A stretch of DNA of 64,000 nucleotides from an uncultured Prochlorococcus sp. Its GTDB lineage: Bacteria > Cyanobacteriota > Cyanobacteriia > PCC-6307 > Cyanobiaceae. How positions within the stretch are numbered: the stretch's first letter is position 1; each line of letters begins with the position of its first letter. Below, piece after piece: positions 18,478-22,379 of this stretch. The stretch covers positions 1-64,000 of the forward strand of contig CACNYU010000003.1 of NCBI GenBank assembly GCA_902624785.1. Reading direction: 5' to 3'. A model generated the notes under the pieces. That model saw only the letters and a list, made by a program, of their open reading frames with translations. It was not told the origin of the DNA and did not search any database. A program made the position numbers and the translations under genes.

Positions 18478-19090
18478 TTAATTATAAGATATTTCTCACA
18501 ATACTTTAATTTATTAATAATAACTACCTAAATAAAGAATTTCAAAATGAATTGAAAACACATATACAGGTACTTATGTTAAAAGAAGTTTCCTAAATAA
18601 AAAAAGTTTTAATATCCTCAAGAAAAAATCAAACAAATCAATATAATTATCAAATAAAAAGGTCTTTGATGTAAATCAGCATAAACACGGATTTACTAAA
18701 TAATATACAAGGTATTAGGTTGTATGTATTGAGTTGGAGGCAATCTTTTTATGATTGAAAATCCGCCTGAAATTTAGTGTATTCCCGACAATGGGAATAT
18801 CTTGATAATTAAAGTTCATCAATTAGTCTGATAAGACTTCGTTTTATAATTACTAACGATACAAGTGCTAATTATAATCAAGATTTTCCCGTCATAACTT
18901 ACTTTAAAAATTCATGAGTAAATGAAATTTAATAAGTAAAAAAAACGCTTTTAATAAGCAAATAAAATTTCAAATTGATTCTAAAAAAGATAACTGATTT
19001 TATTGGTTGTCTTTTTTTTTAGAAATAAAATGATATTCCTTCAAATTTTAATGATATAAATATTAAAAATTTATCTGACAATTTTCAAAA

Positions 19091-20278
19091 TTATTTTTTT
19101 GCTAATACTCTATTAATTTCCCAACAACTTATATCAACGCTACAATTTCTATCTAAAGCTTTTTCAGCAAGGCATCTACCTATTAATGGTGCAAATTTGA
19201 ATGATTGACCTGAACCTCCAGAAAAAACAGTAATATTTGACTTGGGTTTATCAAGGATAAAATTTACGTCGCTTGTCATTGTATAGGGGCTTACAAAAGT
19301 TTCATCACAGCCAATTACACCATTTATATTATTTAAAATAAAATCATCCAGCATTTTTTTCAAAGGATCTATAAAAGGATTTTCCATTGACTTATTATCT
19401 ACCCCAATAATATTTGGTGGGGCCCAGTCTATTCCTACTTTTATTCTTGGAAGATTATTTTTATTTCTACTTAGAACAGGAAAGCCATAATATAATCCTC
19501 CATCTTCATTCCTTGATTTTTGAAAACAAAACCATTGAGGATAACTATTAATAAATTTCTCTTCAACCAAATAATGAGCCCAAAGCATAGGCCATATTTT
19601 AATATCAAGCTTTAAACCTATATTTTCTAATAGCTGGTTAGTCCACATTCCAGAAGCGACAATTAGTTGATCGAAAGTAACAGAATGATTTTCGATAATT
19701 TCAAGTTCATTATTTTTTTCATTAATTCTTTTTATTCTGCAATCTTCAAATATCTGATTACCATTTCTTTTTATAATTTGTATCCAATTCTCAATAGCTA
19801 TATTACTTAAGATTGCTCCTGCGCTTGGTTCAAATAGGCCAACAAAATGATCTTTAGGTTTGATAGGAAATCTTTCCGAAATCTTTTCTGAAGATAGAAA
19901 CTCATATGGAATTTTCTGCTCATCCATGACTTTTTGAGCTCCAGGGATAGAACCTTCAATTGTTTCTTCATCCCAAGATTCTCCATAAAAGAGTAAACCA
20001 TGTTCCTTCCTAAGAGGTTTATTTGATAATAATTCTAGTTCTGACCATAGTCTATTTGATTCCTTAGCAAGTTTACAAAGGACTGGATCTGAGTACATCT
20101 CTCTATACATTCTTGACTCACCAAAACTACTTCCATCAGCATTAGCAATTTTTTGAGCTTCAAATACAGCAATATTTTTTATACCCATTTCACTTAGTGT
20201 TGCTGCAGCACTGAGGCCAGCCATACCACCACCAATAATTGCTATATCTATATGTTTTGGGATACTAAGATTATGCAT
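19091..20278 (-). CDS. FAD-dependent oxidoreductase, monomeric sarcosine oxidase/N-methyltryptophan oxidase-like (DAO family)
   Basis: DIAIIGGGMAGLSAA dinucleotide fold; GSSFGESRMYREMYSDPVLCKLAKESNRLWSELE; FSGGSGQSFKFAPLIG. Confidence 0.85.
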   Translation of the reverse strand: MHNLSIPKHIDIAIIGGGMAGLSAAATLSEMGIKNIAVFEAQKIANADGSSFGESRMYREMYSDPVLCKLAKESNRLWSELELLSNKPLRKEHGLLFYGESWDEETIEGSIPGAQKVMDEQKIPYEFLSSEKISERFPIKPKDHFVGLFEPSAGAILSNIAIENWIQIIKRNGNQIFEDCRIKRINEKNNELEIIENHSVTFDQLIVASGMWTNQLLENIGLKLDIKIWPMLWAHYLVEEKFINSYPQWFCFQKSRNEDGGLYYGFPVLSRNKNNLPRIKVGIDWAPPNIIGVDNKSMENPFIDPLKKMLDDFILNNINGVIGCDETFVSPYTMTSDVNFILDKPKSNITVFSGGSGQSFKFAPLIGRCLAEKALDRNCSVDISCWEINRVLAKK

Positions 20279-21327
20279 TAATTTAAGAATGACTTACCTA
20301 TTATTTCTTTTCTTTCATTTTGCATTAGACATAAAATTTCTTTAGATTCTAAACCACTTTGTTCAAGAGATAAATAAGTAAAACATTTCTTCCTAACTTC
20401 CTCTTGCACGAAATTATATACTTTTTCGGGAGAGGTTCTAGTCCATGCATCAGGCGCATATTTCTCAATAGAGTCAGCAATTACTGCTCCTGCATTAACA
20501 AGTGGATCAGGAATAATTACTACGTTTGAATCTATAAGTTTTACAGGGATTATATTATTACTAAAGGGGGCATTAGCTGCTGAAATAATCGCTTTAGTTT
20601 TTAGAAGGGATTGAGCAATGCTTGTATTTATAAGCCCTGAAATAGAGCATGGAAATATTACATCAAAATTCTGTCGATACCAATTCTTATTATTTCCAAG
20701 TGATATTACTCCAGGAATATTAGTCCTTTCAATGTCAATATCCACTACAAAGGTTTTTATTTTTCTTTTAACAAGTTCTGATGCAACAATTCGTCCAACC
20801 GATCCACATCCATGTACCAGAATTCCATTAGGAAAATCTTGTTGAAAACATTTCTGAAATGCTTCAAATGCGCCTATAACACCCATCCCAGTAGCAGTAC
20901 TCGCATCAACTTTACTATTAATAGCTGCTAAAACATGAGGAGTTAGTTTAAATAATTTCTCCATATCATTAATATTTGTATTCAAATCACATCCTGTTAT
21001 CATCTTTCCTTGCAAATTTTGAAGAAGTTTAGATGTTATAGATATAAGTTTATCCTTGACCAATGAAATATCTGAAGATCTAGCAACAACTTTTCCACCC
21101 GAAAAACCAGTAGAGTAAAGACTATGTTTGCTCTTCATAAGATTTGCCAATCTAAAACCGTCCTGAATACACTCCATATCTGTTTCATAATTTAGGAGTC
21201 TTAATCCTCCATTAGCGGGATGTTCCTCAAGTTTATTTTCTGCCACAATAAAAATAGATAATTCCTCACTTATATATTCGGCAAGTATGCCAACTTCACT
21301 TTTCTGTTGAGTCTGTAAATTAAGCAT
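20278..21327 (-). CDS. Glu/Leu/Phe/Val(/Trp) dehydrogenase family protein
   Basis: PANGGLRLLNYETDMECIQDGFRLANLMKSKHSLYSTGFSGGK; GKMITGCDLNTNINDM; ILVHGCGSVGRIVASEL; FDVIFPCSISGLIN; VNAGAVIAD. Confidence 0.85.
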   Translation of the reverse strand: MLNLQTQQKSEVGILAEYISEELSIFIVAENKLEEHPANGGLRLLNYETDMECIQDGFRLANLMKSKHSLYSTGFSGGKVVARSSDISLVKDKLISITSKLLQNLQGKMITGCDLNTNINDMEKLFKLTPHVLAAINSKVDASTATGMGVIGAFEAFQKCFQQDFPNGILVHGCGSVGRIVASELVKRKIKTFVVDIDIERTNIPGVISLGNNKNWYRQNFDVIFPCSISGLINTSIAQSLLKTKAIISAANAPFSNNIIPVKLIDSNVVIIPDPLVNAGAVIADSIEKYAPDAWTRTSPEKVYNFVQEEVRKKCFTYLSLEQSGLESKEILCLMQNERKEIIGKSFLN

Positions 21328-22379
21328 TAAACTTTCTCCATCATGAGGTGATGTTCTACATAATCAAGACTCCAATTTTCAGGATCATTACTTATTCGTT
21401 TTGTTAAGCGATTAAAAAGTATATCAACCGGATTTAAGTTCGCATGATTATTTTTATCTAAAGCAGAAATAAAACTATGTCTACTCCAGCTTCTTATGGT
21501 TTCCATTAATCCTATTGAAAATTCCTCAGTATTTTGATTAACTTTCCACTTTTTCTTATATGGACAATCTACATATACAGTTCTTTCCTTAATTAGTCTT
21601 AACCCTTTTTTATAAGCTGCAGAATCCTTATTAATTAAAGGCGAGATAAACTCTTCAGGAGACTTATAAAAATTCTGGATCGTACCTTTCTGATATTCAG
21701 TTTCTGTAATAATATTTTCTTCAAGCAACTCTTTCCAAATAGCATGAATTTCATCATGAACATTCACTGTCTTACCACCATTATTCCCGAGATATCTATT
21801 TTCATTATCTCTAGATAAATTAACTGTAAGGAATTTTCCACCAATTTTAAGTTCTTGACTTCTAATATCAAGGATTTGATTCCAGTCATATAATGCTTGC
21901 TTTAAAAAATCACTTCTTGCAGTTTGATTATTTGATGCGAGTACATGAGTATGATCATTGAGATTCTCAACCTTTTTATTAAGCCAATGCATAGCTGTAG
22001 CTGAGAATCCAAAATCAATAAATCCAGAAGGAACAAGCTGATCATAAAAACTACCAGCGCATAAAAAAGTCTTTACTAATTCATTATTAGTTGATTGGAT
22101 TGATAAGTTATTAATTAAAGCCTGATTGTCATTTGAATAAAGATCATTGCCTATCAAAGTAATCTCAGTAGATTGATTCTTTTCGTGTATATTATTTATA
22201 ATATTCTCCCAAAACTCAGACGCGGTGCCACCATCTGCAGCACCATAATCCATTAAAATAACATTTTCGCTTATATTTAGATCAGAGATACATTCTTTCC
22301 CCCAGTCACTTGCAAGATCAATACAGAGCTTTGCACCAGCTGTCTGCTCGCTGTAGCCCTTAGTCATTGCTATTATCAT
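21327..22379 (-). CDS. SABATH-like SAM-dependent carboxyl methyltransferase
   Basis: YSEQTAGAKLCIDLA; VILMDYGAADGGTASEFW; PSGFIDFGFSATAMHWLNKK. Confidence 0.75.
   Translation of the reverse strand: MIIAMTKGYSEQTAGAKLCIDLASDWGKECISDLNISENVILMDYGAADGGTASEFWENIINNIHEKNQSTEITLIGNDLYSNDNQALINNLSIQSTNNELVKTFLCAGSFYDQLVPSGFIDFGFSATAMHWLNKKVENLNDHTHVLASNNQTARSDFLKQALYDWNQILDIRSQELKIGGKFLTVNLSRDNENRYLGNNGGKTVNVHDEIHAIWKELLEENIITETEYQKGTIQNFYKSPEEFISPLINKDSAAYKKGLRLIKERTVYVDCPYKKKWKVNQNTEEFSIGLMETIRSWSRHSFISALDKNNHANLNPVDILFNRLTKRISNDPENWSLDYVEHHLMMEKV

Follow-up and report, generated by a model that had tools for sequence, protein, structure and literature searches.

A conserved three-gene operon of marine picocyanobacteria as a probable route from L-lysine to the betaine homarine

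The 64,000-nucleotide stretch of uncultured Prochlorococcus DNA analysed here (the window) carries an operon of three genes, encoding a SABATH-family methyltransferase (MT), a dehydrogenase of the Glu/Leu/Phe/Val dehydrogenase (ELFV) family (DH) and a flavoenzyme of the sarcosine oxidase superfamily (OX), and this operon probably converts L-lysine to the betaine osmolyte homarine (N-methylpicolinate). In the proposed pathway, DH would use NAD+ to strip the α-amino group from L-lysine, and the resulting 2-oxo-6-aminohexanoate would cyclise to piperideine-2-carboxylate (P2C). OX, as a NikD-like enzyme, would then aromatise P2C to picolinate using O2, and MT would move the methyl group of S-adenosylmethionine (SAM) onto the ring nitrogen of picolinate to yield homarine. 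A transporter of the BCCT family, whose gene adjoins the trio in Synechococcus but lies elsewhere in the genome in some Prochlorococcus, the source genome among them, would import or retrieve the product. We infer the three reactions and the transporter substrate from the NikD-like character of OX, an Asn/Asp pocket in DH, the co-occurrence of the trio with BCCT and the presence of homarine in the hosts. The original prediction for this locus, a dedicated pathway converting an amino acid to a methylated small molecule, remains the best reading of the conserved operon; its further suggestion of a signal or allelochemical is less probable, since the BCCT betaine transporter that co-occurs with the trio points rather to an osmolyte.

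The window is contig 3 of a genome with 1.12 Mb assembled (56% complete), whose nearest named relatives are Prochlorococcus, P. marinus HNLC1 being the closest (94% in DH). All three open reading frames are intact and lie on the minus strand: MT at 21327..22379 (350 amino acids; SAM-dependent, the proposed picolinate N-methyltransferase of the last step), DH at 20278..21327 (349 amino acids; a proposed NAD-dependent L-lysine α-dehydrogenase for the first step) and OX at 19091..20278 (395 amino acids; a proposed NikD-like oxidase for the middle step). Their coordinates bear out the predicted junctions, in which the stop codon of one gene and the start codon of the next overlap by one shared base in a minus-strand TAATG, at 21327 between MT and DH and at 20278 between DH and OX, indicating translational coupling. 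The suggested Pfam check likewise agreed with the family assignments, which are Methyltransf_7 for MT, ELFV_dehydrog with its N-domain for DH (E values 2.8e-12 and 9.4e-6) and DAO for OX (3.8e-37). The three genes are under purifying selection: dN/dS is 0.11-0.13 when close relatives are compared and 0.07-0.10 for a distant one. With gene order and tight coupling recurring in relatives as well, the arrangement is not due to chance. That the trio is an operon of these three families is certain. The stretch beyond OX (18478-19090), previously described as a non-coding gap of ~600 bp, contains the Rfam Yfr8 small RNA: a Yfr8/9 match (67.9 bits against a gathering threshold of 40) lies at 18728-18933 on the minus strand, just downstream of the trio. 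The same small RNA occupies this position at two other loci (L017 and L019), whereas at a third (L066) it lies ~8 kb upstream of the trio. A scan for promoters and terminators returned matches at chance level only.

Failure of synteny in other genomes had been set in the original prediction as its refutation test, and here the refutation fails: the order MT-DH-OX is kept, with its coupling, in nine of nine other Prochlorococcus loci examined (HNLC1, MIT 9201, MIT 9401, and single-cell or metagenome genomes) and is identical in all 16 Synechococcus loci read, also where the surroundings differ (L060, L061). The MT-DH junction reads TAATG or TGATG in the Prochlorococcus loci, while in most Synechococcus loci the start and stop overlap over a longer stretch. 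Carriage in Prochlorococcus is patchy, with five carriers of the trio besides the source genome among 149 relatives searched. A family-wide search found MT orthologues in 71 of 400 Cyanobiaceae genomes; carriers other than Prochlorococcus fall in five genera, and in one of these (g44) DH is present in 17 of 19 good genomes. A DH profile search across the sampled cyanobacteria recovered orthologues in Cyanobiaceae alone, and weaker ELFV relatives (~120 bits or less) elsewhere, and a wider cyanobacterial spread was rejected on this basis. A phage origin was also rejected, as there was no match in phage records and no relatives were confirmed in viral contigs.

Several loci show departures from this common layout. 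In two Synechococcus genomes MT is split by a frameshift (L064, 9198-10231; L065, 9578-10632), at different sites and with DH, OX and BCCT intact, owing to either a true loss of the gene or an error in sequencing. The region that holds the trio in HLII-type Prochlorococcus is variable and has, on one side, a tRNA pair beside aroQ (L022, 8353-8517; L024, 19876-20039), which suggests an insertion site for an island. In these HLII-type genomes only, the trio is followed by a gene for a 236-amino-acid helix-hairpin-helix protein (L021, 12285-12995; L024, 12270-12992; L066, 12925-13635); it was rejected as an operon member, being absent from the clade of the window and unrelated by domain. Further afield, a plasmid of Rhizobium sp. 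CB3171, an isolate from Calliandra, encodes a SABATH methyltransferase with 31% identity to MT (L053, 7971-10366) next to a DadA/ThiO-like FAD enzyme, with a B12/radical-SAM protein near and transposases around. With a different FAD enzyme and no DH, this locus does not represent the same pathway and perhaps makes another methylated amino-acid product.

The nature of the product is suggested by a fourth gene. The gene after OX, on the same strand, encodes a transporter in each of the 16 Synechococcus loci; the protein passes the Pfam BCCT model (427.9 bits against a cut-off of 27, E = 6e-128), and in the source genome a BCCT gene is found away from the trio (G000:C1:42157-43650). Across the 400 Cyanobiaceae genomes, 68 have both MT and BCCT, 3 MT only, 1 BCCT only and 328 neither, a tally that counts related genomes separately, so that its Fisher value cannot be taken as the probability of independent events. 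Outside Prochlorococcus the MT and BCCT sets are the same 66 genomes; the three MT-only genomes and the single BCCT-only genome are all Prochlorococcus, and the three trio-bearing Prochlorococcus without BCCT count against the homarine reading. In one Synechococcus genus, two genomes (G369, G410) have neither the trio nor BCCT, and this joint absence, together with the loci that have moved, argues for a functional link between MT and the transporter. BCCT carriers transport betaines, carnitine and choline, so the operon product is probably a betaine; a functional link of the operon to some betaine is, in our view, very likely.

Homarine is a betaine measured in these hosts. The genome that we take to be that of Synechococcus WH7803 (G389) contains the whole operon. 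Homarine was present in both Synechococcus strains assayed, at up to 18 mM in WH8102 and ~0.2 mM in WH7803, values after standard correction (PMC8269262, PMC10134881). No homarine value for a Prochlorococcus with the trio came up in our literature search. In WH8102 a BetT homologue, SYNW0229, is part of SYNW0229-0233, a predicted operon of five genes, the rest of which were conjectured to be osmolyte-transporter subunits (PMC2874817). The neighbour order in other Synechococcus loci is BCCT, OX, DH, MT and then an RdgB-like gene on the same strand, and by analogy with it SYNW0229-0233 are expected to be the homarine genes. The glycine betaine of WH8102 is made by GsmT/SdmT (PMC2874817) and hence does not require the trio. 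The marine Synechococcus glycine betaine cluster (GsmT/SdmT with ProVWX, SYNW1913-1917) resembles the trio with BCCT in combining a SAM-made betaine with an uptake system, although its enzymes are unrelated, its precursor is glycine and its transporter is of the ABC rather than the BCCT type; WH8102 has both.

Of the three proposed reactions, N-methylation is the weakest. MT passes the Methyltransf_7/SABATH model near full length (86.8 bits against 29.8, E = 2e-24), and its relatives in the PDB are fatty-acid, salicylate and xanthosine methyltransferases. With the salicylate, fatty-acid and xanthine enzymes it shares the family, the SAM-binding core and the position of Trp151 of salicylate methyltransferase (SAMT), kept as Trp132; it differs from them in being bacterial, in its operon with an oxidase and a dehydrogenase, in its proposed nitrogen acceptor and in having Ala16 in place of SAMT Gln25, the residue that we take to hold the carboxylate and, with Trp151, to mark the carboxyl-methylating members. 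The loss of this clamp fits, and does not prove, N-methylation; thus the earlier assignment of MT to SABATH stands, and the carboxyl methylation that was read from it is not implied. MT scores nearer to carboxyl O-methyltransferases (99 bits for the fatty-acid enzyme FAMT, 66 for SAMT) than to SABATH N-methyltransferases (46-53 bits), and this is where an alternative with the same first two steps draws its strength: MT could methylate the carboxylate, giving methyl picolinate or another ester as a volatile or signal, with BCCT serving some other substrate. The retained Trp151 position also agrees with such an ester. We nevertheless regard it as unlikely, since the residue holding the carboxylate is Ala in MT, an ester is no betaine and would leave the strict co-occurrence of MT and BCCT unexplained, and it is homarine that has been measured in the hosts.

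Lysine is suggested as the precursor by the predicted pocket of DH. The AlphaFold2 model of this protein (pLDDT 86) matches leucine and phenylalanine dehydrogenases (LeuDH, PheDH) best in the PDB, and DH shares with these enzymes and with tryptophan dehydrogenase (TrpDH; ScyB) the fold, the catalytic lysines and aspartate (Lys67, Lys79 and Asp114, corresponding to LeuDH Lys68, Lys80 and Asp115) and the NAD-binding GxGxxG motif, here GCGSVG; motif and catalytic residues are invariant in Prochlorococcus and kept in Synechococcus. The side chain of the substrate is presumably read at two positions, Leu40 and Val294 in LeuDH, equivalent to Lys89 and Ser380 in glutamate dehydrogenase. The first is Asn39 in DH, and the second is Asp285 if the helix is aligned gap-free; HMMER and MAFFT open a two-residue gap there, whereas the predicted helix 280-290 is unbroken in the model, which favours the gap-free register. 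Both residues are invariant in all DH homologues, in Prochlorococcus, Synechococcus and a stand-alone copy. Such an Asn/Asp pocket is as expected for a cationic side chain such as the lysine ammonium, and not for Leu or Trp; LeuDH and TrpDH have Leu/Met and Val at these positions. The stand-alone DH, with the same pocket, occurs in a high-GC Cyanobiaceae genome (G178; L114, 9549-10673, minus strand) with no MT, OX or BCCT at that place, and this lone copy counts against the proposed pathway. A cationic-type pocket could accept ornithine as well, in which case DH would give 1-pyrroline-2-carboxylate, OX pyrrole-2-carboxylate and MT a methylated form of the latter. This analogous route appears very improbable: the known NikD substrate is six-membered, and N-methylpyrrole-2-carboxylate is no betaine and, to our knowledge, has not been reported from these cells.

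The middle step is suggested by the similarity of OX to NikD. When the OX family profile was compared with all solved chains, NikD scored best at 154 bits and sarcosine oxidases reached 132, although a single-protein query with the OX of the window ranked sarcosine oxidase first instead. A structure search with a moderate OX model placed sarcosine oxidases, with monomeric sarcosine oxidase (MSOX) first, slightly over NikD; it does not separate the two and was set aside as a discriminator. At the level of residues, NikD Arg53, Glu101, Tyr258 and Lys358 align with OX Arg59, Glu108, Tyr264 and Lys361, of which Arg59 and Lys361 are the substrate-carboxylate pair. The equivalent of Glu101 lies in a T-x-E-G segment that sarcosine oxidases do not have. 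In the second strand of a hairpin bearing the motif [KR]-x-G-x-[HD], OX Lys280 and Asp284 correspond to NikD Arg272 and Asp276, where sarcosine oxidases have His; the Asp284 match is by motif only, as automatic alignment leaves that stretch unresolved. We take Glu101 and Asp276 to be NikD active-site residues. Two other features of NikD are replaced in OX, namely the flavin-linking Cys (Cys321; Cys315 in sarcosine oxidase) by Ser330 and Trp355 by Gln358, so that, as judged from its residues, OX may work like NikD without being a strict NikD-type member. The earlier description of OX as resembling monomeric sarcosine and N-methyltryptophan oxidases is therefore right for the superfamily, whereas the closest enzyme by family profile is NikD.

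NikD oxidises P2C to picolinate, and this P2C derives from L-lysine (PMC4021061). The NikC/NikD nikkomycin route thus parallels the trio in the aromatisation of lysine-derived P2C by a flavoenzyme of the monomeric-sarcosine-oxidase superfamily. It differs in its first enzyme, a lysine 2-aminotransferase rather than an ELFV dehydrogenase, and in the fate of picolinate, which is activated by a CoA ligase there and would be N-methylated here.

The superfamily of OX, the first rank of MSOX in the structure search and the membership of BCCT in an importer family could also be read as catabolic nitrogen salvage, in which BCCT would import a methylated amine or betaine, OX demethylate it and DH free ammonia. 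There is little to recommend this reading, which has no place for a SAM methyltransferase and sits poorly with the NikD-type residues retained in OX; in addition, homarine catabolism, as cited in PMC13390433, uses Mgd-type enzymes unlike those of the trio. Least probable of all is the indolic pathway of the original prediction (a ScyB-like tryptophan dehydrogenase, an N-methyltryptophan oxidase-like enzyme and a SABATH enzyme acting on an indolic acid), for although Trp_DH_ScyB and N-methyl-L-tryptophan oxidase are the best NCBIfam names, the scores fall far under the cut-offs (DH 98.4 against 600 bits; OX 186 against 257 bits for MTOX, and 146 against 480 for soxA_mon), the acidic/polar residues of the DH pocket (Asn39/Asp285) are unlike those of TrpDH, and no link to BCCT would be expected.

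The homarine biosynthetic pathway has been described by survey authors as uncharacterised and its genes as unknown, leaving its sources untraceable in genomes or transcripts (PMC8269262, PMC8269247). Our literature search likewise found no homarine synthesis genes, although literature beyond that searched may already name them. Work on shrimp has attributed homarine instead to a quinolinate route, which counts against a lysine origin. On balance, we favour the view that the trio and BCCT are the first pathway to homarine to be defined genetically, one that starts from lysine and replaces the assumed tryptophan/quinolinate route, present in nearly all genomes of some marine Synechococcus genera and patchily retained in Prochlorococcus. 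Along a transect in the North Pacific, homarine accounted for as much as 0.25% of the particulate carbon (corrected value; PMC10134881). If our reading is correct, omics data already at hand could reveal the organisms that produce homarine, the expression of its genes and its diel cycling; the quinolinate origin, long accepted, would then not hold in cyanobacteria, and a bacterial pyridine N-methyltransferase would join the SABATH family.
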